The position numbers and the translations under genes are program-made. The notes under the pieces are model-generated. The model was not told the origin of the DNA. It worked only from the letters and a program-made list of their open reading frames with translations, and did not search any database. Below are positions 6,798 through 54,825 of a stretch of DNA of 64,000 nt, one piece after another. How positions within the stretch are numbered: position 1 is the stretch's first letter; each line of letters starts with the position of its first letter. This stretch comes from Cystobasidiopsis lactophilus (lineage: Eukaryota; Basidiomycota; Agaricostilbomycetes; Agaricostilbales; Chionosphaeraceae): assembly GCA_001599975.1 (NCBI GenBank), contig BCIO01000001.1, forward strand, positions 3,965,631 to 4,029,630, read 5' to 3'.

Positions 6798-9700
6798 ATG
6801 GAGTGCCCGCTCGAGTGGAGCTTCGCCCATGGGCCCTTGTCGACCTGTCGGGTGGACGTCAACCTCCGCTTCTCGGTTGTCGTGCTGGGCTTGCTACCGG
6901 CTGCGATTTTCATCCTAGTCTGCTGCCTCAGAGTCCTTCGTCTAGTCAAATCACGTCTTGAGAAGCCGGCTCGGCCTGTGTTGTCCTTGCCGTTTTGGCT
7001 CAAAATCGATGCTGCGGTCGGCCTGCTCGTCACTGCTGGCCTTCAATTAGCAGCCTGGGTCATTCTACGCCGCCACTTTAGTGCTTATGACTCTAAACTG
7101 GCCCTGTCATACTTCATTCTGCGCCTTATCGGAGCTGTAGGTGCTTTGCGCCTCGAAGAAGGCCCAAGATGACAGGCTGCCTTTGCTCTCAGACCCTACT
7201 GCCTCTGTGGCTGTACTTGGAACAGAAACGTGAAAAGCAGACCTCCCATCTGATCGCCGCCCTCTTGCTTTTGCAACTGGCCTGTGACGCGGTTCGGATC
7301 CGCACCTTCACCCTCCTCCATTTCGACTTGCACCACACCTTCTTCTTCGTCTCGCTCGTNCTCAACTTCGNNTTNTCTGTTCTCNGNTTCCTGTTTGAAG
7401 AGCTTCTTCTGGACGCCGCNCCCGANATCCAAGCNACTGCCTACTCCCTCACGTCCACAACTCTGCTGATCTGGTTCTGGAAGTTGATGATCGAGGGATG
7501 GACCCACATTTTCAAGTCTTCGGAGCTACCTCAAGTGCTTGAGTCGTCCGAAAAGTCGTTTGAAGCCTTCCAGGCCATTTGGCTCCGCCGGTCTAAACCT
7601 GGCGCTCGCTTGTGCGTGTCGAGGTTTTCTCTGTTACCACATCCGTCATCGTTCATCACCTTGTGACTCGGATAGACCTTTAACCATGTCTTTGGTGGAA
7701 GCCTTCAGATGGGAGATGGTGCTTCCCGCAGTCGTCGCCATCTTTCAAGCGGTCTGCTTGTGCTCGAATGCTTTGCTACTGAAGGCCCTCTTGATCTTTA
7801 TCGAGTACGTTACACCTTTCTTGATCGTTGAGGGGCATACCCAACAGCCAGCCCAGTGCCAAGAGCTCCGGCCATCCCCAGCCCGATCTAGTGGGCTGGT
7901 TTATCGCTTTAGCCTACGTCTTCTTCACCGTGTCCTCCGTCTTGGCCTACACCTGTAAGTGGACTTGTGCCATGAGAAGCCTCTTGAATGCTAAGAATCT
8001 CGATAGATGCAAGAAGCGCGTCCTTCAAGGTGGCCCACCTCTCAGGCAAACCGAACAAGCTTCTTGACACTGGGTCACGAAGGTTGGAAGCCTCTTCCGA
8101 GCAACCATGATGCAAGCCGTCTATCGAAAGGCGGTGAGTTCTCTGTCTGGCCCCTTTACTCTGAAACAAGTGCTGATTGCAGCTCATTAAATCAAGCTTG
8201 TCATGACCCGGCACGCCATGCAAGCAAAATCCAGCTAGATGCTGCTTTTGGTATTCTAACCTGATGGGTTTAGGGATGTCGACGTGGGCCCGGGCAAACT
8301 GACCAGCTTCCTCAGCAACGACCTAGAGCGCGTCACCGTCGTGAGCGATCTGCCGGTCGTCGTCATACAAATGCTGTTCTCGTACATTTTTGGTTTGCTG
8401 TAAGTCTGCGCATAATGAATGCTCCCTACCGCTGCTGACTCGCGACATCTGACGGCTCGCAGAATAATCTGGCACGAGACCAATCGGACCGCTGTTGTGG
8501 CCACCACTATCTGTGTTTTACTGGCGGCTGGCACGCTTCCACTCACTGCCAATTCTTCAGCTGAAGCCCAAACGAAGTGGTCCGCAGCAACAGATCGTAG
8601 AGTTCGCCTTGTGAGCGCAGTTGCTTTTGGGTGGGTAAATGAGCTCAAAGCTGTATCCCAGATCGCTTCCACCATCAACTGCGTAAGTGATGGAAAAATT
8701 GATTTGGAGCACATTCTCACTCAGAAAGCAGATCAGAGCCATCAAACTTGCGGCTTATGAGCGCGTGCTATCCCTAAAATACTTCGCCTTGTTGGAAAAG
8801 GAGCTGAAAGCAATGCGGTCTTATCGTTTCAAATGGCTCGTAAACGGAGGCATCCACAACCTGAGTAAGCTTTGCACATTGGTGTCTACTGCGCTAAGCA
8901 TTGTCTTCAGCATTTTGCCTTCTGCGCATCGTCGTGCTGGCCGCATTCGCTTTGTCGCCCAACGCCAGCTTCGATAGAATTCGAGTGCTTACTGTGTTGG
9001 CCGTGCTGAATGCGTGGATGGCCTCTTACGTTCGTCGAGCTCGCTGGCTGTTAGCATTGCATGCGACTGATCCGATTTGCCCAGTACGAGGTTGTTTGGC
9101 GCTATGGCATGGGGTGAGTCTCTGACTGGCTGTTTCACGCTAGGTGTCACCTATTGCTGGAGCAGGCTCTCGGCAGCGTCTAGCATGAGCCGACTCCAAT
9201 CCTTTTTGCTTCTGCCCGAGAAGCAGCCTGCTCTTCTAGCGTCATCTGGCGAAAAGACTGCATTTTTTGCGTCTGTTCACTCGGAGGAGAAGATTTCCAC
9301 GCGCGTCTCATTTGAAGATGCTGACATCGGCATTGGCGGCAAGATCATTTTGTNTAAAGTCAACGGNACAGCAGTCCCGCAAGGCNTGACTATCCTCGCA
9401 AGTGCTACTGGAGCGGGCAAATCGACATTGCTCAATGCTATCATCGGCGAATGTGACATCCTTTCTGGGAAAGTTCACTCTCCGGCCGATGTCCTACCGG
9501 TCGCCCTTTGCTCCCAAGACCCGTTCATCCGAACCAACCACACCGTCAGGGAAAACATTTTGTTTGAACAGGCCATGGACTATGCGCGGTACCAGAGCGT
9601 CATTCAGGCGACAGCCCTCGATGTCGACTTTGTCGAGTTCGAAGAAAAAGACCTTCACACAGCTCGTGGCCTATCAGGCGGTCAAAGGAGCCGGGTTGCA

Positions 9701-12525
9701 CTCGCTCGCGCTCTTTACGCTGACTGCCAGGTCGTCATTCTTGACGTAAGCTTCTCGGGCCCAATCGCCTGGCTCTTTGTTGAGTATGCGCGCAGGATGT
9801 GTTCTCGGCATTGGACCAAGTCACGGTCAGTCACTTCACGACCCTTTCCTGACGTTCATTCTAGATACTGATTATAGCGAACAGGAAGAGCACTGCTTCA
9901 ACGCGCTCTTCGGGGAGCGAGGCCTTCTAAGAGGCAAAACTGTCATAATGGCGACCAACGACGGCGAGCCCTCTCTCCTCTGCATGGCGCTCGNATCACC
10001 TTGTTTAACATACNAACGCAGTCAAGCGCTTTCACCGTGCTGAACATATCTGGTTCGTTGCCAACGGCACCATCGCCGCCACCGGAACTTGCAAGGTCCT
10101 TGTGGATACCTGTCCCGCTTTTCGGTCCCTCATCGACATTCCAAATTTGCGAACTCAAAAGCAGCTGGTGGCTGCCAAACCCGACGGCCTTGGCAGCCAC
10201 CTCGGAGTCGACGGGGGACTTGATGATAGCCTGGCTCGGGAAGCAGCGGAAGAGGCGGCAGCCATCCACTCTTCNAGCTCNTTGCCNGCNNTCANGACAT
10301 GGNTCAAGCTCATGGGGNTCAAAAATTGCTTGCTGACAGCTAGTGAGCTACCCGCCACTTCACATTGCAAATCTGTTTTGACTCCGCAAGCTCAGTCACC
10401 GATATTCTGGCGTGGCCACTATTCCAGATCGGTTTCTTGCTTTACGTCAATGGCTGGATTAGCAACGCAAACCGGCTGCCGGGCGTCTGGGTGGGAGGAC
10501 TCATTGTCCTATCGCTCTTTTACGTGTTCCTGGCCATGTCCTTTTGGGTGCGTTTGGTTTTAAGTGCTTCAAATCTCATTTTAATGACGCTATGTAGGCC
10601 ATGATGCTTGTATACTCGCCAATCCACGCCACTCGATTATTTCACAGACAGCAAACTCGCGGCCTTTTCAATGTACGGGCGTCTTGGTTCCAGGAGCACA
10701 CTGTTGGCTTTGTCCTCAATCGGTACGCTTTCCTTCTTCGGGCACCCCGCAAGCGTTGAATCTGCCACCAGCTTTTCGTCCGATTTTTTCCTGGTCCAAA
10801 CGGAATTCAGCTTTCATGGTGAGCGGCGAAGCGCTCTATTTTGGACCTGTTACCATGGTCTCATGCGTTTTGTCCCGCAAGTCATAAACGTTACAGAGCC
10901 TATGCTCTACTTAGTTAGCATGGCTGTTATCGACATTCTCGCAAACCCTTGGAATGCTTTGGTGGTCTTCTCCTTTGTGCTGTTCATCGAGGGAGCTCGC
11001 CGATTCTATGGTCGCACAAGCAAACAGGTTCGTTTCGGTGCTCCACTGATGAGTGGCCGCTGCTAATGAGTCCTGCGCGCAGCTCCGGGAGCTTGAAGCG
11101 GCCACTCGCACTCCCGTGTACACTTCGGCCTCGGAGAGTAAATTTCAAAGCAATTCCTCCCGAGCTTCACTCAATATCTGACAGTTTCTGATTCGGGTGC
11201 ACTGGTCATCATACGCAGCTTTGAGAAGCAAGCCCGTTTGATTGGATCGGCCACTCGAGCGATCGACCAAAGCAACGCGCCCTTCTACCTGCTGAGAGTC
11301 TGCCGTGTCTGGTGCACGCTATTTGGTGGCTGCTACAACATCGTCCTGACGGCGGCAATGGTCTTTCTGGCCGTAGGATCGCCACTCGGCTCGACCAACC
11401 TGACTGCGCTGGCAATAATTCAGACGCTTAACCTCACGCACACCATGACATTTTTACTCACGAGCGCAGGTCATAAACGTACTTTTACCGAGAGCTGGCT
11501 GATGCTGGCCAACAGGTGACGGATGTGGAGATCAACGCCGTGTCTGTGGAGCGCTGCCGAGCCATCGCTGAACTACCGCCAGAAGACCCGGAAGTCGACT
11601 CTTTGGAAAGGCGCCTGCTTCAGTCTGACCAAAGCGTTGTTCAAAATGGCCATATTGTCTTCCATGCCGTGTCCCTCCGCTACAGTGCAACTGCGCCTCT
11701 TGCCCTGCGTGATCTGTCCTTCGACGTTCCAGCGGGTACCAAGATTGGTATTTGCGGAAGAACGGGCTCCGGAAAGAGCTCCATGCTCTCTACACTGTTC
11801 AGGATGGTCGAGATTGAGGACGGCTCCATCGAGATCGATGGCAAAGACATCCGCACGGTCGACCGCTTCACTCTTAGAGACTGCATGTGTGAGTAGATAT
11901 GACCATCCTTAAAATCTATCGCTCAAGAGACCTGGAGCAGCCATCGTCCCACAAGAGCCAGTGATCGTCGCCTTGACTTTGCGAGAGAATATCGACCCGG
12001 AAGGGCTCGCCACCGACGTGGAAATATGGGAAGCCCTGGAAAAGACCCATGTAAGAGTTTTGCGTGACCTCTGCATACGTCTCTAATTGCAAAGCTTCAG
12101 TGCAAAGACTTTGTGTCCGAGTTGCCTGGCCAGCTCGACCACGAGGTCCCAGTCAACGCCGCCTCTCTCTCGCGCGGTCAAATCCAGCTCATTGCACTGG
12201 CGCGAGCATTCTTGCGCAAGCGAAAAATCCTCTGCCTGGACGAGGCCTCGGCGTCGGTCGACTTTGCCACCGACCACGCCATCCAGAAGACTCTCCGCTC
12301 CGCTTTCAACGACTGCACTATGGTCGTTGTGGCTCACAGAATATCGTGTGTATGCTTCTATGTCTATACTCGCCGACTAATCGCGAAGGACCCAGGACGA
12401 TCATCGACATGGACCTCGTGCTGGTATTGGACAAGGGGCGCGTCGTTGAGCAGGGCAAGCCGGAGGACCTGCTCCACGTTGAAGACGGCTACTTTAGGCG
12501 GCTTGCAGGGGAACTCGAGCCGTGA
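6798..12525 (+). CDS. ABCC (MRP-type) ABC transporter, copy A
   Basis: Full-length ABC exporter of subfamily C, expected in the vacuolar or plasma membrane and in general moving glutathione or other organic-anion conjugates. Exons: 6798-7136, 7193-7611, 7676-7804, 7848-7954, 8007-8029, 8083-8133, 8197-8219, 8274-8399, 8463-8610, 8662-8682, 8732-8864, 8911-9029, 9085-9113, 9166-9745, 9796-9825, 9885-9963, 10022-10342, 10396-10547, 10598-10722, 10772-10818, 10882-11027, 11083-11137, 11185-11465, 11516-11888, 11941-12050, 12101-12345, 12396-12525; 1446 residues. Layout: N-terminal TMD0, TMD1, NBD1 (Walker A GAGKST, signature [15 protein letters not shown], Walker B VVILDDVFSALD), TMD2, NBD2 ([42 protein letters not shown]). 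Three introns use GC donors. About 20 scattered N bases fall between 7360 and 10319. The frame closes throughout, so it is not an obvious pseudogene. Confidence 0.88.
8220..8273 (+). other. GC-AG intron in ABCC copy A (first)
   Basis: Donor GCAAGC, acceptor GGGTTTAG, with a TTCTAAC branch site about 20 bases upstream. Splicing joins AT to G, giving [12 protein letters not shown], which aligns without gaps to [13 protein letters not shown] in copy B, where the same intron (14144-14199) has a normal GT donor. Confidence 0.75.
9964..10021 (+). other. GC-AG intron in ABCC copy A (second, shared with copy B)
   Basis: Donor GCGAGC and acceptor ACGCAG, phase 1 after MATND; the product continues VKRFHRAEH. 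Copy B has a GC-AG intron at the same codon and phase (15964-16018). Two N bases lie inside the intron. Confidence 0.75.
11466..11515 (+). other. GC-AG intron in ABCC copy A (third)
   Basis: Donor GCAGGT, acceptor CCAACAG, phase 0. A GT donor three bases further on would shift the frame. With the GC donor TMTFLLTS joins [11 protein letters not shown], matching LMSFVLRD + [11 protein letters not shown] of copy B residue for residue. Confidence 0.65.
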
Positions 12526-29839: not shown

Positions 29840-30606
29840 CTCACCCTTTCAGTCGCCGTGGTCGTTCTTTTGTGTGGTTAGACACCATGGCATGGCCTCT
29901 CCCCTTTTTGTGCGGGCATTTTCTCCACGCAGCATCAGTGAGTCGATTCTCCCTGCTGTCCTCGCGACTCGTGTTGAGTGTCTGCGGCCAGACCATTTCT
30001 TTTTCATTGTGCATATTCACGCCCTAATTCTCCCTCCACCTCACCGCCACTATCAACGACAACACACGCCTTTTTACCGCCTCAATTCGCCCTCTTCTTA
30101 TCGAACAAAATCATGGTGTTTTCTGGGATCCATTTTGTACTTCTGGTTGTTTGACTATCTGGGATGGCGCTTGTCGGGCCTGTATGCGGTTTCTTCGTGT
30201 CTCTTTTTCTACCCTCTCCTATCACGCATACTCGCATGACATTTGAAATGAATTCGCAAACGTTTTCGGGACTTCGCCCTGCCATCTGTTCTGGCAATGT
30301 TGCTCTGCAACATTCATGCTGCCACTGCAATGCCTTTCTGCTCTGCTTCGTATCGAGGGATCACTGTGTTCTCGACTGGCTTGATGGTTCTATGCCAGGG
30401 ATAGAGAGTGTCCCTTTGTTCTAGCGCTTCTCATTTCGTCTTGGGCCGAGGTCTGCCTTGATGTCTGTCGTCTACGACTTGTCTTGCGAGACTATTGAGC
30501 TATTCTGTACTAAGACGCGCCTTGCTGCTCAGCGGGACGGGACAGAACTGCTGGAGTACACCCAAGTTACGGGGGCTTCGGCTAATCCGACAAAGGCCGT
30601 TGAAAT
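29840..30606. other. Intergenic region before the SUR7-like gene
   Basis: T-rich 3' sequence followed by the promoter of the next gene. ORFs on either strand here lack starts in context or domains. Nothing else seen. Confidence 0.4.
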
Positions 30607-32397
30607 ATGGAAGGAGGCATGGGTGGTATGGGAGGCATGGGAGGCATGGGCGGTGAGATGTAAGCTTGCTCCCTTGACTTGAGAGCCTGTCGGATCTGAC
30701 GATTTGCAGGGGCGGAATGTGAATGATCTTTTGACTGCTCCCAGCGCCAGAACTTACGCTCTCTGACCTTCAGGGGCGGCGGAATGTGCGTTGTGTCCGT
30801 TGCTGATCTCAATTTCTGTCTAAAAGCGCTCGCAGGGGTGGTGAAGGGTTCGTTCTGGTCTTTCTTCGGGATTTGCCACCGAGTCTCACTGAACGAGCTC
30901 TCTGTCGGTTGACAGGGTAGGACTCTCCTTCCGCTTAAATGATCTTTGACTCTCCGTTGACCGAGTCTTGCGGCAAAAGGGCATGGGAATGTGAGTGCGA
31001 GGTCATCTCGCGGGTCCGACTCAGGCCTGCTCTGCTACTCGTCGAGATCTTTTGGTAACGAGGCTGTTCTTTGACAGGGTGAGACTCGTTGCTTGACAGA
31101 ACTCATTTGCGAGATTCCAAACGTGAGTCAGGGCGGGGAAATGGGCGGTATGCCAATGGGAGGAGGAGGCTCAGAGGGTATGCAAGAGAAACCTCGAGTG
31201 CACCACGGATGGAACGGTGAGATGAAGCTTCTGTTGACTTGAGGACTTTCTCAAACCAACCTGACCAGGCACTTTCACGTTTTGGAGCATTGGGCCGAAA
31301 GTGCACAATCTGATCATCTATATACTAATCGGTGCCGCTCTGTTCATGCAGGCCATTGCCACTCTAGGTGCTCCTCAAATCAAACAGGTCTACTTCAGCG
31401 TCGGGAAGCTGCCTGGTGGCCAAGGACAAATCTCCATCGGCTGGCTTGGGGCCTGCATCTACGACACAGGGACGAAATGGAATACTTGCACCATGCCCAA
31501 CTACCCACTGAACATCGGTTGGTGGCTTTCCTTCTCTTTAGACGACCCAGGGAAGGTGTCTGAGACGGGCGGCAACAGCTAATTTTGGGAACATTGACGG
31601 CCGGCTCAAAGACGTGGCGTAGGTCCGCCCTTTCCAGACCCTTCCGATGGCTGACTATGAATGAGTTGTAGAGATATATTTGACAACCTAGCCAAAACTC
31701 GGTCGCTGGCATTCAATGCCGGCGCTGCGGTCACGACCTTCATCGCTCTCTGCTCACATCGACTATTCCATGCTCGTGGGCCTTTCTACTTCACTTGCGT
31801 TGCCTTCCTTGTAGCATGGATCGCTTTCTTGATCGACGTGACGGTCTTCATGCCGGCAAACACGTAGGCGGTTGGCTTTCTGGCGGGACCTTCCTTTCTG
31901 AGCCAGGCGTAGTCAAATGAACTCCAAGGCCGGGCTAGACGCATCTTGGGGTCTTGCTCTCGCCTTTATGGGATTGTCCTGTCTTGCGCTGACCATTGCC
32001 CCCTTTTGGTCGTATTCGTCGGTCGCCTTTGTTCTGCCAGCTGGCTCCTCAAGACTTTGCTAACCATTTCTAAAGCCGCTCTGTCAAAAACCAGACAAAC
32101 GTGCGTATTGTTGTATTATAACTTGTCTCCCTAAGACTTTTGTTGTTCAGTGGCCGGACCACGACCCTGCCAAGCCCCCCATGGGACCGGGTGGCGCGGG
32201 TGCTTTGCCTGAAGGCGGCGGCGCCGGCGGAGTAAGCTTTCATGGCATCAGCATGGCGTTCACTCATTGATGCTCATCGGTAGATGATGGGCGGAGGAGC
32301 CGAAGGTGGAATGCCCCCGGAAGGTGGCATGATGGGTGGCGGCGGCGGAGTACCAGGAGCAGGGGCACCCGGCGGCGGAATGGGAGGCGAGTTCTAG
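30607..32397 (+). CDS. SUR7/PalI-like four-TM protein with Gly/Met-rich ends
   Basis: Predicted plasma-membrane protein of the claudin-like SUR7/PalI type. Model exons: 30607-30659, 30710-30718, 30774-30785, 30836-30847, 30916, 30980-30990, 31078, 31132-31216, 31269-31517, 31579-31618, 31672-31863, 31907-32011, 32076-32100, 32151-32231, 32284-32397; 329 residues. The first ~50 residues are GGM/GGE repeats. Four helices: LIIYILIGAALFMQAIATLG; then an outer loop with WLGACIYDTGTKWNTC (the GLGxC..C pattern); LAFNAGAAVTTFIALCSH; FTCVAFLVAWIAFLIDV; LALAFMGLSCLALTIAPFW. The C-terminal tail is again Gly/Met/Pro-rich and ends GGEF. Exons from 31132 on are firm. The upstream microexons, including two of one base, are inferred from phase and need transcript support; a shorter protein from ATG 31141 is possible. 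Confidence 0.65.
30660..31131 (+). other. Microexon array encoding the Gly/Met repeat
   Basis: Introns 30660-30709, 30719-30773, 30786-30835, 30848-30915, 30917-30979, 30991-31077 and 31079-31131 alternate with exons of 9, 12, 12, 1, 11 and 1 nt. The 9- and first 12-nt exons read G GGC GGA AT and G GGC GGC GGA AT: each starts after CAG, ends AT before GTG, and keeps phase 2, so splicing always rebuilds an ATG between glycines. The two 1-nt exons sit in the near-identical context TTGACAG-G-GT, and both are required to keep frame into 31132. Confidence 0.5.
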
Positions 32398-32521
32398 GCC
32401 ATCGCCCGAGCTTGTGGTGTATTTGCGTACTCGCAAAGGATTATTTTGTGCGTATAAAATACAATTATTTGGTACCAATGTCTCTTGTTGCCACCCCAAG
32501 CCCAATCTTCCGCTACCGGTG

Positions 32522-33330
32522 TCACGCCATCATTAAACCAGCAATCGGGACGAGTGGTAGAAGTACCAATAAGGCAGAGAACTGGAACCTTGAGCTAGCC
32601 GTGGACGAAAGCGTTATCGACGACGAAGCCGGCTGGGACGCTAGAGCTGCATTCGTTGGAAAGGATGAAGTGGTCGAAGCCGAAGGTGGCTTGGGAGCCG
32701 ATGCATTATACGGCATAAGTGCAATCACGTCGGAATACCCTTGAGCGTTGGTGTCGTTCAAGGAGGTTACGACGAGGGAGTCTGCGATCCAAGGAACAGA
32801 AGCCAACGTCAGCCTCCATACGAGATGCGGTATCGCAAGACAAAAGCTATGGCTTACAGTTTCCGAATGGCACAGTCGGCACCGTCAGGTTGTATTCGCC
32901 ACACGTCTCGCCCGAAGTGTTGTCGTCGCAAATGGTGATAGCCGGCGTTGAGGCTGAAATGTTGTAAGAGAAGGTCGAGTTGGCTTGGGAGACCAGAGCT
33001 ATCCAGACGTTAGTGGCTTTAGGCTGCAGCAGAAGATGTGAGCTTCTCAAGTTTTGAGAATGTTTGGGAAAGCATGCGCACATTGAGCCACTGCGTCCGC
33101 TGGTAGCTGCCTACTGGCCAATTCACTGTGCACTTGAATGTTGTACAACTACAAGAGACACAGTATTAGCATCCCAATTTCGATCTGCCGCTAGCAGAAG
33201 GAACATACTAAGGCTGCGAGATGAACAGTTGTTTCCCCGTTGGATCATTGTTTGACTCTTGGGAGGACACCAAAGGTGCCGAAGCCAAGAGCAAAGCGGT
33301 CAGGCAGGTTGGGAATAAGGCGAACTTCAT
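32522..33330 (-). CDS. Secreted Ser/Thr-rich protein, probably GPI-anchored
   Basis: Exons 33209-33330, 33082-33148, 32858-33023 and 32522-32781 (minus strand) give 204 residues. It begins MKFALFPTCLTALLLASAPLVSSQ, a clear signal peptide, and ends in a hydrophobic FSALLVLLPLVPIAGLMMA preceded by a Ser/Thr/Ala-rich stretch, as in GPI-anchored proteins. The middle contains GKQLFISQPYC, NVWIALVSQANSTFSYNIS, a Cys-containing CDDNTSGETC loop, and YSLVVTSLNDTNAQGYSDVI. This beta-rich pattern recalls the KRE9/KNH1-like fold of fungal wall proteins, but similarity is loose. Several NxS/T sites are present. It converges with the SUR7-like gene (124 bases apart). Confidence 0.7.
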
Positions 33331-33702: not shown

Positions 33703-36138
33703 ATGCTCAAAAGCTCGCCAGAGAAGCGGCGCCTCACTCGTCAAGTTGCCTCTCTGACAGAAGGCACTGATGCAGCGTCTGACACTGGCGCCGACGAGGG
33801 CGTCCTGCTGCCGGGCTCGACCATCTTTTACATCTCGCCAGATGGGACTGACCCTCGCAATCTGGAGCACTACGAGCGCGTCACAATGCCTCCGCTTCCT
33901 GAGCTGACTCGCATAGAGACGCCGCCGTGGGTGGATCTGGGAAACGACTACTCTCACCCGAGAGTGAGGCCTGGCGATGTGGTGAGCTTAGACCTCGCGA
34001 CCCGGCGACAGCGGAACTGATGTATTCTCCCCGTTTTGCAGTTGATGGACATGTCAGAAGAGTATTACGAGCGGCTACATCGGCCTCGCGAATTGCTGGA
34101 GAAGAAGGCGAAGCGAATGGAGAGGGAGCGCTTGATGAGCGAACGCAACAAATTGCGCAACCACGTCGAGCGGCTCAAGACCGGCGAACGCGTTTCGTCT
34201 TTGATGCGCAGGCCAGAGGTCACCAGCTTGCAAGAACCCGAGAAGCGGGCGATGTACGAAAAGCTCAAGCTCGAAATGATCGAGCAGGCCGAAGAGACCC
34301 TCCGGCGCTACGACGATCTCCTGGAACCTCGCCAACCCGAAGTTTTGATTGCACCCCCAGAAGAGGAGGGGAAAACGACGAGGAAAATGCCCGGCTATCA
34401 CGGCGAGATCATTTCTCATCCCACAACCTCTCGAAGAGCGCCTTCTGCGACGACGTCGACGGCAGCGGTAGATCCGACCGACGATGCCGACGATTTGGAA
34501 GGAAAGTCAGCGACCAAGAGATCGAAAAAGAGCAAGAGCAAAGGCAAGAAGAAGAAGACGACGAACAGCGCACTGGTGGCGGTCACGTTGGGCGAGGAGG
34601 ACGGGCTGGACGCCGCCGAATCTTCGACCGCCCAACACGATGCCGAAAATGCGCCGGTGCCCGTCCCTGCGACACCTCGTCCGACGCGCGCCACCAGGTC
34701 TACGAATTCGCCAGTGAAAGACGAACCCCCTCAACACGCGCCCGTGGCTTCAACGAGCCGCTCTACTAGGGCCACTGCTGGTCTCAAGCAAATAACCGCC
34801 GACTCAAGAGATAAGTCACCCGTCGAGGAGGCCACCGGCCGCCCAACTCGAGCGCAAGCTCGCGCTTCTAAGGAGGATGCGCCGGCCCCAGAGCTTTCCC
34901 AGGCCGAGTCCAGAGCCCGTCGAAGCGCCAAGAGCTCCGCTCCTGGCCCAACGACCGAGGAGGATGGCGACGACGTGGTCAAAGAGACGCCGGAGGCGCC
35001 GCCTGTCAAGCGCTCCAGGAAGGCCAAGGTCAAGAGCGAGGGGTCCTCGGTTTCTCCAGCTCCAAAAAGGTCCACGCGTATGATGCCCTCGGTGTTTGGG
35101 TCTTCTGCACCGCCCGAAGAGGAGGCAGCTGGCGGAGCGTCCGAAATTCTTCCAGACTCAGCCGAGGGTATGAAGCGCTCTTTGTCGTCACATTCTGCCC
35201 ACCATGCTCATTCCATTGCAGGCAATGATGTTGCGGACGACCCTGCCGTGCCTCGGATCCAGATCTCGCACACAAACCAAGTCACCAAGGCCAGACCGCG
35301 CCGTCAAACCTATGGCGGCAAGCGAAAGAAGTCGTCTCGACCGTCAACCTCTGCTGCTGCTCAAAGCACATCGCCCGCCGTTACTTCTGAGCCTGTGGCC
35401 GACACTTCATCCTCGGTCGTTATCCCCGATTCTCAGGAGCCTTCGGCGTCCAACGCTGGGCAGACCTCCAGCGCGAATCAGACATCAGGCTCCGTCATGA
35501 TCCCCGACTCTCAAGAGGCCGACGAGGGCAAGTTGGTGGAGGAGTCGCTCGTCATGTCCACCCGAAGCGGCAAGCGCATCACCCCAGCCGCCTTGTCTTC
35601 CCCGGTCCCCACTAAGCAGCCCGCTACCGCTTCCTCTTTGCGCACCTCCTCCAAGCGTCGCCGGTCTGCCAAAGACGAGGAGGACTCAGTCATACCCGAG
35701 TCAGATTCGCTAGAGCATCCTGCAGAGTCTGGACCGTCGACCTCCAACAAGCGCGCCAAGCGTTCCAGCACCAGCAAGAAAAGCCCGGCGCCCGGTGTAC
35801 AGCAACCAGAAGAGCCAGCAGAAGAAGAAGGTCCGCCCACTCGCAAGCTCCGCCGGTCCTCTGCCCGCCAAGCTTCGGCTCCCGCTGGTGCTGCAGCTGC
35901 GGCCACTGAGGAGGAGGAAGAGCCTGCCACTAACGAAGCGGTCACTCCCGGCCCTTCCACACGCCGTTCTTCTTCGGGACGAGCGAAGGCTGCAGCTGGT
36001 GCGTTCCCACAATCTCGTGTCCCGCTTCGCAGCACTTTACTTAACATTGCCCCCTTTGGGGTCCTCTCAGAACCTGCCGAGCCAGAAGTAGTGGGTAGCA
36101 GCAGCCGGAAGAAAAGGTCTTCGTCTCGCAAGCGCTGA
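33703..36138 (+). CDS. Disordered, charged nuclear-type protein with PEHE/Sas4-like segment
   Basis: Exons 33703-33981 and 34042-36138 give 791 residues. The N-terminal ~190 residues are the conserved-looking part: LPPGSTIFYISP-like segment, PPWVDLGNDYSHPRV, then DMSEEYYERLHRPRELLEKK and a long basic/acidic helix. The order W-acidic-DxSDExYxxRH-ExxEK recalls the PEHE domain of MSL1/NSL1-type acetyltransferase scaffolds or fungal Sas4; this assignment is inference. The remaining ~600 residues are Ser/Lys/Glu-rich, with KRSKKSKSKGKKKK-type nuclear signals and three copies of a VIPDSQE/VIPESD-like motif around 35420, 35500 and 35690. 35168-35221 (GTATGA..TTGCAG, 54 nt) is a possible in-frame retained intron inside exon 2. 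Confidence 0.6.
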
Positions 36139-50474: not shown

Positions 50475-53122
50475 TCAGAATGTCGACTCTTCTCCCCAGT
50501 CGATCCACTGGTCTGCTTCGAATGATGCAAAGAGCTCGCCAACATTCGGGGGGTCGGCAATGTCTTGGACCGGCGGGAGCGAGAGGGAAGGCCACAGGGC
50601 AGTGGCGGGAGTAGCACTCAGAAGCGAAATCGTCTCTGATCTTGGCCTTAGCTTTGTACGATCGTACATAGAGAGTAATAGGACCTCACCAGCCTTAAGA
50701 TGTGCGAGATTGGCCAGGTTGTTCATTCTTTCCAAGATCTCGGCGTCGACCTTCCAAGAGTAGCTAGTGCCACGTATGTGTTGGCATATGGTGCTTCGAG
50801 AAGGATTCAGTGTAAATCAAGACCAAGGGGAATAGAGTGGCTCACTTGACGTCGTCTGACTTGACGCGAAGTGTCCAGCTCTCATCGAGGCCTCCTTCTT
50901 CCCACGTCGGCCAATCGAGGAGATCCATAATGCTAAGGTTCCTCGTGAGACCAAATCTCTTGATTAGATTGATAAGAGGAAGACATACGCCTCTGACGCC
51001 ATCTGAACCGGGAAGATGAGGAGGCCAAGATTGAGCACGCCGAATTTATTGGTAAGAGCTCGTTCGCGAGCCAACAGGTATCGCAGCCCTTGTCGTCTTT
51101 GTGATTTTAGGTTCTCTAGTGCCTGCTTCATGCGGTCGACCATGGCGGGTGATGAGCGGGAGACTGCAGGTGGCGACACCGTTTGCTGAGACGCCCAATG
51201 ATAGCGAAAGGAAAGGAGCTGAGTGGCTTCGTCTAGAATATAGAACTTCCAATACGATAGGGTGCGGTGCCAGACCATGCGCAGAGGCGAGCAAGCGGGC
51301 TGGGACGCCGTTTGGGACTGCGCGAATGCGTAAATTGAGGGGAGTGACAATGGAAGTCGTACCTACCCCGACCTCTGATCTAAGCTTCTCTCTGGTCCCC
51401 AAGCGATGTAAGAGACTACAAGTTGAGTGGATCTCGTCCACTACCTCCATTAGCTTTTCGTCAGCCGGTGACGGTTTCCGGCACTCGTGAAGGAGACGCC
51501 CTAAACGTATGAGATTTCCAAAGACGTGAGCTCTAACCCTGTGATGGCACATATTAAGTCACGTTGAGTCTCAATTTATTGTAACTGACGAAAGGCGAAA
51601 GGCCAGCGGCTGCTCTGTGGCTGTGCCAGGCTCCGATTGTCCCAGCCAAGGTTCCAGTATTCGGTTCACTGCATAGATAGGATGTCAATAACGACTAGAG
51701 CACGAGGTCAATAGGTACATACGGCCCTCCGCGGTGAAAGTCTGCGCCGGAAGGAGACGAAAGTCGTGCTCTGCGTTGACCCTGGTCAGATCGCATATAG
51801 GTCAACCAAAGTGTTTAAATCAGGCTTGCCTGAGATAACGAGAGGAAGGTCCAAGGAAAGGGCGAGAAAGGTGTCCGTAATTGTGATGAACCAGAAAAGC
51901 CGCTCGGCTTCACACTTGCTCTAAGGGGTGAGGTGTGTTCGCGGATTAACGCAAAAATGGAGATCAGATACCTTGTCTAAATCCATTGGGTCTTTATTGT
52001 CCAAGTCATGGCTAAGCCAGAGCATTCGGTATTGCGCGGCGGTCTGATGTCCCAGAAGATACGTCTGAGATTTGTCTTTGGGGAACGTAGCACTATGCAA
52101 GAGCCACAAAAGATGGCTGCATTGGACTGTGGGCATAAGCAAGACAACCAAGACATGGAAGATGAACAGCTCACGTTGACCAAGTCGCAGCTGGGCCGAC
52201 TTTGGTTGCGATACCAGCACGATCATACTGCGCCTTGGCGAAATGGTAGAGAGCCTGGCAAGCGGGCTCTCTTGCAGCCGACCACCGAGATAAGTCCTGA
52301 CTGGGATCAGTTTCTAGCACGGTAGGGCAGTCTTCTCCAGCAATGGCAGGGTGATTAGACTGGCGGTCTTTACTGAGTGGCCATATCAAGATATTAGACC
52401 AATTGACTTACGACTCTGGCGGCTACCGCTTGCAGAATGTAGCACAGGCATCGAAGGTCATCAGGCAGGGCGCGTGGCTCCTTGTTGGCAGCCTCATACG
52501 CGTCCCAGAAGTAGTTCCAGTAGATGATAGGAAACTCTGACATCAATGTTGTTGTGTCAGACTCTCAAGAGAGTTGGGGCGCCAAAGGTCACCCACGAAA
52601 TTGGACAGCACGCAGGAACAAGTCAATTAGCTCGCGACCGACCTCCTCCGATACTGGTGATTCGCTAGCGATCGGTGTCATATCAGGAGAAGTCGGCGGA
52701 GCAGAGGACGTCGAAGCTTCGCTGGAGCCGGAAGAAGTGCCCAACATTTGTCGGACGGCTTCGATGCGTTTGCCTTTGATTGGCCTGTTCATCTTGCTCA
52801 ACGAGTCTTTGTTTGCCAATCAGTCAGCTCACTCAAACAATCAGTCTGTGTAGCTCACAGAGGGACACGCATTCAATGCCCTTGTTGACACATGAGGCAC
52901 ACGCCGTTTCGAAAGAGTCTCGGACGCATTTAATTCTCTGCGTCGGAGGACCACAGTGAGCAATAGCATTAAAGGATAACATCATGAGCCGCAGAGACAG
53001 ACGCGAGCTCGACAGCCATCACAAGCCTGGCTTTGCTTGCGCTCGGTGATTGGCACGCGTCCCTTGGAGGGCTTCTTGGGTCGCGGAACATCGATGCTTT
53101 CTGGACTAGAGACACATTCCAT
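50475..53122 (-). CDS. Zn2Cys6 transcription factor, copy 2
   Basis: Tandem paralogue of the previous gene. Fourteen exons (53003-53122, 52859-52937, 52597-52806, 52412-52536, 52175-52359, 51972-52116, 51830-51914, 51723-51770, 51590-51668, 51367-51538, 50989-51317, 50846-50932, 50690-50763, 50475-50635) give 632 residues. Zinc cluster: QACDGCRAR joined to RIKCVRDSFETACASCVNKG; linker RPIKGKRIEAVRQ. The middle domain aligns with copy 1 over most of its length (EAERLFWFITITDTFLAL, LIRLGRLLHE, GLRYLLARERALTNKFG). It ends in an acidic/aromatic tail (FEADQWIDWGEESTF). Intron 51771-51829 has a GC donor. About 30 residues present in copy 1 near its C-terminus are replaced by the intron 50764-50845. 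Confidence 0.85.
51771..51829 (-). other. GC-AG intron in Zn2Cys6 copy 2
   Basis: Minus-strand donor GCAAGC and acceptor AACGCAG, phase 1. Splicing gives VISEHDFRLLP, which aligns without gaps to RFTERDFANIP of copy 1, whose matching intron (48985-49036) has a GT donor. Confidence 0.7.
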
Positions 53123-53243
53123 GACGGGAAAGGGCTGCGAATGTCACTGTGGACGGACAGGAGCAAGAGATAGGAATGCGCACATCGATCCTCCCGCACG
53201 CATCCGCCTCGGTTCGGGCTCCTCTGCTTGCAAAGCTCTAAAA

Positions 53244-54825
53244 TCACACGAAGGCCGCAGCCAGATCCTCCTTCGAACCGATCAGTCCACCCTTGAAGGC
53301 CGCAGCCAACTTCTTGCCTTTGACCGACTCCAAACCCTCGCCCGCATATGAGACTGCTGGGGCCAATTCAATCTCTGCCGAGCCTTCATCCAGCAAAGCA
53401 CCAGCGTCCTGGAGCCATCTCTTGTGCTCGGCGAGCAAATCAGCGCGGCTCCTGTATACGTTCGCATTAGCAAAAAGCCAACGTCGAGTGTGAAGGGGGG
53501 CAGCGCACGTCTCGGGGCAGTCGGAACCAGCGCCGGGCGCGTTCTTCAAGGGCGAGAAGAAGCTCTTGCGGTCGACTTCTAGAATGGCCATGTGGGCGTC
53601 GTCGACGAAGGGGAAGACGTCAAAGATGAAGAGCTCCATCTTGACGCCGTTGACCTTGGTGGGCTTGACCAGCTCCTTCGTCTCCAAGTCGAAGTACGGG
53701 ATCTTCTTGCGAGCGATGTGGTAGGCCAGCTCTGACTCGCGGGCCTGGATGGAGGCGAGGAAGTCCAATGTGAAGAAATGGTTGACGATGTTGGCGGCCC
53801 GATATTGGAGCTGGCCAGTCGAGTCGGTGGCCTCTGAGAGCGATGTGGGAATCTCTGAGTATTCGACCACAGCCCAGGCCCCGTTTTTCTTGGCCACCAC
53901 GCCCACGCTCTCCTTAGGGTCCGTCTTGCGAACGACCTTGACCCCGCACGAGGCCTTCTTGCTGATGCCAAAACCCAAGAAAGTGGGGTCGGCAACGCGC
54001 ACCAGGCAGTTGTCAACGCCGTAGGTGTGGAGGTACTGGATGCCGCGGGACTTGGCGTGTTCGAGCACTGAAGGCTTGCCAGGCGACGTGGGCTTGAGGA
54101 GACCGGCGTAGATACCGCCGTTGCCATCGGGCGCCACGGACAGCGAAGAGGGAGAGTCCAGCAGGAACTTGCCGTCGTTGCTGATGCAGGGCAGGACACC
54201 TGTTTGCGAACGTTGGACTGAGCACCAGGTGATAAAGAGCTGAACGAGAAGGGATCGACAGACCTTGTTCGAAGAAGATGACTGTCTCCGGGTCCAAGCC
54301 GAAGTACTTGTTCTCTCTGAAGTAGTCTTCAGTGGGCTTGCGGGTCGGCCCAGAGGTCATGATGTACCAGACAATGGGCTGCTGTGCACCAGCGAGCGCC
54401 TGGACCTTGGCGATCCGCTCGGCTTGCAAGGCGAACAGCGACTTGTGCGAGGGCAACCCGATGTCGTAGCAGCCCTTGGGCGCGCTGGAGCCAAGCCGGG
54501 TGCCCTGTCCACCGGCCAAGAGGAGGACGGCGACCTGGCCCTTTGCAATCGCCTCCAGTCCCACGTTGTGCCAGTCCGACAGCTTGCTCTTGTCCACGCC
54601 AATCACAGAGTCGAACGATCCAGCCGTGGGAGGCTCAAAGGTGGCAGCAGACGCAGAGGCGGCCGCTGCGTCCGCCTCGATTGCCGTTTTGTAAATAGCG
54701 CTCACTTTGGCGGGGTCCACAGCCTGCAATTGGGCGTCGAACCGGGCCTTGTCGTCTGCGCTGAGGCTATCGTAGAAGGTGTACACCTGGCCCTGCCCAT
54801 TCGACTCGAAGGTGGCCCTCGCCAT
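53244..54825 (-). CDS. UAP1: UDP-N-acetylglucosamine pyrophosphorylase
   Basis: Makes UDP-GlcNAc from GlcNAc-1-phosphate and UTP in the cytosol, the sugar donor for chitin, N-glycans and GPI anchors; normally essential in fungi. Exons 54264-54825, 53509-54199 and 53244-53451 give 486 residues, the usual size. Motifs: [18 protein letters not shown] (nucleotide-binding loop), [43 protein letters not shown] across intron 1, [12 protein letters not shown] (substrate loop), [12 protein letters not shown] and [12 protein letters not shown]. Intron 53452-53508 (57 nt) is in frame without stops; removing it restores the canonical [18 protein letters not shown]. Confidence 0.96.

Follow-up and report, generated by a model that had tools for sequence, protein, structure and literature searches.

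Exons of a single nucleotide have been published for the plant genes APC11 and VPS55 (PMC4674806, PMC8831610), and sequential intron removal was proposed as the explanation for APC11 (PMC4674806). In Fusarium, CYP621A has one 1-nt exon per gene, read-confirmed and conserved across 20 orthologues, and in F. graminearum this gene has a 139-nt gap with AGGGT (PMC12940212). In the window, that is, the whole stretch of 64,000 nt analysed here, a gene for a SUR7/PalI-like protein contains an array of predicted microexons, two of them 1 nt long. The array resembles CYP621A as described there in that a fungal gene has AG/G/GT (slashes mark exon borders), a gap of about two introns and a lone G that would restore the frame within a Gly codon (in the array, exon 5), but it differs in having two 1-nt exons in one gene, both predicted and placed among six microexons, and in that exon 7 completes a Met codon (PMC12940212). 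With APC11 and VPS55 it shares a single-nucleotide exon flanked by two introns, whereas the published cases are from plants, occur one per gene, are conserved and lack a repeat (PMC4674806, PMC8831610). A literature search on fungal microexons and 1-nt exons gave no case of a gene with two of the latter. The array appears to be an extreme case of a known kind of splicing, with 1-nt exons already known singly in plants and Fusarium.

Ascomycete stwintrons also consist of two abutting short introns that are removed consecutively under intron definition, but there one intron lies within a splice signal of its partner, and no exon base is left, whereas the array leaves one G (PMC12403724, PMC7138796). 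The donors and acceptors of introns 4–7 are intact in the genomic sequence, and we do not class these introns as stwintrons. In Schistosoma, micro-exon genes likewise assemble a protein from many very short exons; these are described as a superfamily for secreted proteins with exons of 3–81 bp and introns of up to 5 kb, whereas the array introns are 50–87 nt long and lie at one locus (PMC10526429). All introns of the present gene measure 49–87 nt and its product is a membrane protein, and it was not assigned to that class.

The gene model has 15 exons and runs from ATG 30607 to TAG 32395–32397, encoding 329 aa. The features are as follows.

30607..30659 (+): exon 1, start codon and Gly/Met repeat MEGGMGGMGGMGGMGGEM, 53 nt; in-frame TGA upstream
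30660..30709 (+): intron 1, 50 nt, phase 2; 5′ half similar to intron 8
30710..30718 (+): microexon 2, GGGCGGAAT, 9 nt; from path model and codon frame
30719..30773 (+): intron 2, 55 nt, phase 2; weak donor GTGAAT
30774..30785 (+): microexon 3, GGGCGGCGGAAT, 12 nt; from path model and codon frame
30786..30835 (+): intron 3, 50 nt, phase 2; from site scores
30836..30847 (+): microexon 4, GGGTGGTGAAGG, 12 nt; from path model and codon frame
30848..30915 (+): intron 4, 68 nt, phase 2; from site scores
30916..30916 (+): predicted 1-nt exon 5 (G), AG/G/GT; from path model and genomic-segment control
30917..30979 (+): intron 5, 63 nt, phase 0; donor GTAGGA at the 11th percentile
30980..30990 (+): microexon 6, GGCATGGGAAT, 11 nt; from path model and codon frame
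30991..31077 (+): intron 6, 87 nt, phase 2; from site scores
31078..31078 (+): predicted 1-nt exon 7 (G), AG/G/GT; from path model and genomic-segment control
31079..31131 (+): intron 7, 53 nt, phase 0; from site scores
31132..31216 (+): exon 8, end of the Gly/Met tail and lead-in to the first transmembrane segment, 85 nt
31217..31268 (+): intron 8, 52 nt; from site scores and likeness to intron 1
31269..32397 (+): exons 9–15, SUR7/PalI-like membrane domain and C-terminal Gly/Met tail; from gene model, Pfam and hydropathy
31269–31517, 31579–31618, 31672–31863, 31913–32017 (+): exons 9–12; from gene model
32076–32100, 32151–32231, 32284–32397 (+): exons 13–15; from gene model

The sequence-only reading had proposed exons of 9, 12, 12, 1, 11 and 1 nt separated by GT-AG introns of 50–87 nt, and all of them were found where it had placed them. 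GT-AG borders are present in all seven array introns (50, 55, 50, 68, 63, 87 and 53 nt). The reading frame before ATG 30607 is TGA AAT, and the frame opens at 30607 unless something is spliced in upstream. From exon 4 to exon 8 the predicted spliced order is ...GGTGAAGG-G-GGCATGGGAAT-G-GGCGGGG... The same reading had every intron in phase 2, which holds for introns 1, 2, 3, 4 and 6, whereas introns 5 and 7 are in phase 0. Its claim that every junction rebuilds an ATG applies to introns 1–3 and to the 6/7 pair, but the 4/5 pair gives GGG. The repeat unit that it gave, CAG/GGGC(GGC)GGAAT/GTG, is exact in exons 2 and 3 and inexact in the other exons. Retention of any single intron disrupts the frame (14/14 introns of the gene model).

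Splice sites were scored with a model trained on 264 kb of this genome, comprising the window and 20 stretches. A self-trained gene finder produced 97 genes with 562 introns, as rough models, and the final site model was taken from the 392 of these 562 introns with both flanking exons at least 40 nt long. Positions 30000–33000 were masked in training, yet seven downstream introns of the same gene were among the seeds. The predicted introns of the genome have GTNNGY-like donors, acceptors that are mostly CAG and a median length of 59 nt. Compared with the 392 predicted introns, array donors 1–7 stand at percentiles 83, 6, 94, 49, 11, 93 and 43, and array acceptors 1–7 at percentiles 38, 43, 24, 70, 16, 84 and 17. 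Most array sites are strong, and all fall inside the range of these introns; the weak ones are donors 30719 (GTGAAT) and 30917 (GTAGGA) and acceptors 30979 and 31131. The branch-point motif CTRAY occurs in 143 of the 392 predicted introns, against 55 after shuffling. It is present in introns 1–3, introns 5 and 7 have only the looser TTGAC, and neither version of the motif was found in array introns 4 and 6. A possible alternative exon of 23 nt (31100–31122) is bounded by the acceptor at 31099, which scores 6.6, and the donor at 31123, which scores 8.5; read by hand from exon 6 to acceptor 31174 (3.3), it would be in frame and would replace part of the Gly/Met tail.

A path model combining the splice sites with Gly/Met codons picked exons of exactly 53, 9, 12, 12, 1, 11, 1 and 85 nt. 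Its codon part learned from portions of exons 1 and 8 and of the C-terminal exons, with the microexons excluded, and its scoring carried no penalty on exon size. The exact exon set was chosen at 5/5 intron penalties (−6 to −14), with introns of up to 130 or up to 600 nt. The array path scored 129.6, as the best route through a region that had been singled out beforehand. Dinucleotide shuffles of the interior reached a maximum of 63.0 with introns of up to 130 nt (858 feasible) and 56.0 with introns of up to 600 nt (all feasible), and none of 1000 reached the array score in either setting. Real genomic inserts of equal length gave maxima of 48.7 and 56.3 (0/2000 at the array score). The array is present in the sequence as described, far beyond chance; the sequence shows its frame and splice-site quality, and its splicing in RNA is predicted. 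In the general gene finder, which lacked the Gly/Met model, the array went unpredicted and the gene spanned 31209–31867. The 97 rough gene models contain no run of at least four consecutive internal exons of up to 15 nt, a single run of three and a single run of two; they also include a few exons of 0 or 1 nt that are themselves doubtful.

The two 1-nt exons, 30916 and 31078, are each a single base between AG and GT and are needed for the frame in the best model. Blocking exon 5 lowered the best score to 114.4–114.8 and blocking exon 7 to 113.3, so the alternatives are 15–16 bits worse for each. Blocking both left 98.4–100.6, a loss of 29–31 bits. Since the scoring has no penalty on tiny exons, these differences are too large if exons of 1 nt are rare to begin with. 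The substitutes bring in non-Gly/Met residues, and one of them uses a different 1-nt exon. The two exons had been called the only solution found that keeps the frame; this was overstated, as other in-frame paths exist at lower scores. The spans from intron through exon to intron around exons 5 and 7 are 132 and 141 nt. In frame-blind controls with 20000 random genomic segments for each length, 0.025% of the 132-nt segments held AG-1nt-GT sites scoring at least as well as those of exon 5, and 0/20000 of the 141-nt segments held sites matching those of exon 7; at lenient cut-offs the shares were 1.6% (132 nt) and 2.0% (141 nt).

Exons 2 and 3 start as AG/GGGC and exon 4 as AG/GGGT, whereas exons 6 and 8 start as AG/GGC and are one G short. 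These two are the exons with a lone G exon in front of them, and the lone G would therefore supply the base missing from their start. The G of exon 5 completes a Gly codon and that of exon 7 a Met codon. The pattern fits a new intron one base inside an existing exon, or else the loss of a G that a cryptic AGGGT made good, as has been proposed for Fusarium CYP621A (PMC12940212).

An unlikely alternative accepts microexons 2, 3, 4 and 6 and discards the 1-nt exons. In one version, the assembly or this allele lacks a G in front of exons 6 and 8, and each gap (132 and 141 nt) is one intron; in the other, the frame is kept by weaker alternative sites. The shortfall is indeed exactly one G at each of two places, the window contains 22 N (though none within the array), and frame-keeping paths without the 1-nt exons still score 98–101. 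Introns of such length are also predicted: with introns of up to 300 nt allowed, lengths of at least 132 nt make up 18.5% of 390 predicted introns, and lengths of at least 141 nt 16.9%; these shares are upper bounds, as that run fused neighbouring genes (58 genes versus 97). However, the same error would be required twice, in runs of just three G, and two strong AG/G/GT sites, each dividing its gap into two normal introns, would be left to chance.

SUR7/PalI proteins have four transmembrane segments. The product of the gene model begins MEGGMGGMGGMGGMGGEMGGMGGGMGGEGGMGMGGEMGGMPMGGGGSEGM..., followed by the membrane domain and a second Gly/Met-rich tail; the first 50 residues include 29 Gly and 14 Met, and the last 61 include 28 Gly. 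The best Pfam match is SUR7/PalI (PF06687; E 1.5e-6, 28.5 bits), just below the curated cut-off of 29.6, with an alignment spanning positions 8–197 of 201. Hydropathy exceeds the set threshold in three stretches, and the expected second one is below it. The genome has four other SUR7 matches, and the rough models of these loci lack the Gly/Met N-terminal array. Scans of viral contigs and prokaryotic genome contigs gave no relatives of the gene, and no solved structure matched the protein.

We think it probable, with moderate confidence, that these are constitutively spliced microexons in a relaxed, low-complexity Gly/Met tail of a SUR7/PalI-like protein, spliced by intron definition in a fungus rich in introns. 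Exon 1, the six microexons and exon 8, all normally joined, would encode the N-terminal tail, which is presumed to be cytosolic. Because each intron is of ordinary size for the genome, splice sites could be paired across introns, and exon definition would be unnecessary. At each 1-nt exon, splicing would take out the two neighbouring introns in succession, so that one G stays behind. The relaxed repeat may have tolerated intron gain, small duplications and one-base slips beside splice sites while the frame held. We infer the splicing itself, the order of intron removal, the topology and the history.

It is improbable that the array is instead a transcribed leader or promoter, with the exon 8 ATG at 31141 as the start of translation and the GGM pieces before it as remnants. 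Such a start would leave a complete membrane domain with a shorter tail, and the general gene finder likewise excluded the array, but exon 1 has an ATG right behind a stop and a clean Gly/Met frame, and in-frame splice sites border each piece, which remnants need not retain. We give still less weight to regulated microexon skipping that sets the repeat length. Exons 2, 3 and 4 (9, 12 and 12 nt) have equal phase, the weak donor 30719 makes skipping of exon 2 plausible, and 23 of the 63 skip sets of exons 2–7 keep the frame, a count that follows from the exon lengths and is not evidence of use. However, a Gly/Met repeat interrupted by introns would yield the same without selection, and loss of one 1-nt exon alone shifts the frame. 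That splicing tunes the repeat length, as the sequence-only reading had suggested, is possible. One long intron skipping the microexons, for example from donor 30653 (6.2) to acceptor 31099 (6.6), both fair sites and 447 nt apart in a frame read by hand and unscored, is very improbable, as the model with introns of up to 600 nt still selected the array and, with the donors of exons 2–7 blocked, the best score was 66.0 instead of 129.6.

For the array, origin by duplication or by intron insertion had been suggested, and the data support this in part. Introns 1 (30660–30709) and 8 (31217–31268) have common 5′ halves (score 36, against a maximum of 32 in 20000 random pairs), which suggests local copying without proving it. 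Their similarity covers about 33 nt including the exon edge, and a one-base difference shifts the donor position. The seven array introns are jointly only weakly alike: their mean similarity was matched by 41/1000 random length-matched sets, while 0/58 same-gene intron sets reached the array mean and 8/58 the array maximum. On this weak likeness, the array may or may not stem from tandem copies of a whole exon-intron unit. Against the 392 introns, array introns gave best scores of 18–27 (about 21 is expected by chance), with introns 4 and 5 at the top (27 and 26). Introners (PMC9860276) would account for many new introns in one gene. Their mark, many near-identical introns in the genome, was absent here: no intron family was found, and the 801-base region matches solely itself in the genome. 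An introner origin was rejected.

The contexts of the two 1-nt exons resemble each other at p ~ 0.02–0.03 relative to other AGGGTRNG contexts. The pattern TTGACAGGGTRNG, picked after the two sites had been seen, has two occurrences in the genome (22.1 Mb), both in the array, and a reversed control pattern likewise has two. A 1-nt exon with its flanking intron halves might have been copied within the gene, so that single-nucleotide exons could multiply; two would now be obligatory, in the shortest chain of its kind (six microexons), with a length changeable by skipping without loss of frame. We regard this as rather unlikely. In the 22.1 Mb, a pattern of three GGNGGNATG units matches exon 1 only, in two overlapping matches. 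A pattern search of the genome found no further GGM repeats outside this gene, and the exon 3 unit has no match at other loci in the genome.

If spliced as predicted, the locus would be one fungal gene with two 1-nt exons and six consecutive microexons. It would test the reach of intron definition without exon recognition, and also how introns accumulate in low-complexity coding repeats. Such exons would escape annotation pipelines, as the array escaped the general gene finder here.

Elsewhere in the window, the 22 N are scattered single or paired bases at 7360–10318, inside a predicted long gene (6798–12525), and are perhaps ambiguous consensus calls. The gene model at 51786–54825 (−) has a start that we take to be UDP-sugar pyrophosphorylase-like and an end that we take to be zinc-cluster transcription factor-like, and it is probably two genes fused by the gene finder. 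The neighbouring gene at 33703–36091 has a match to the SAS4 silencing complex (PF15460, E 4.7e-6), which is above the cut-off.
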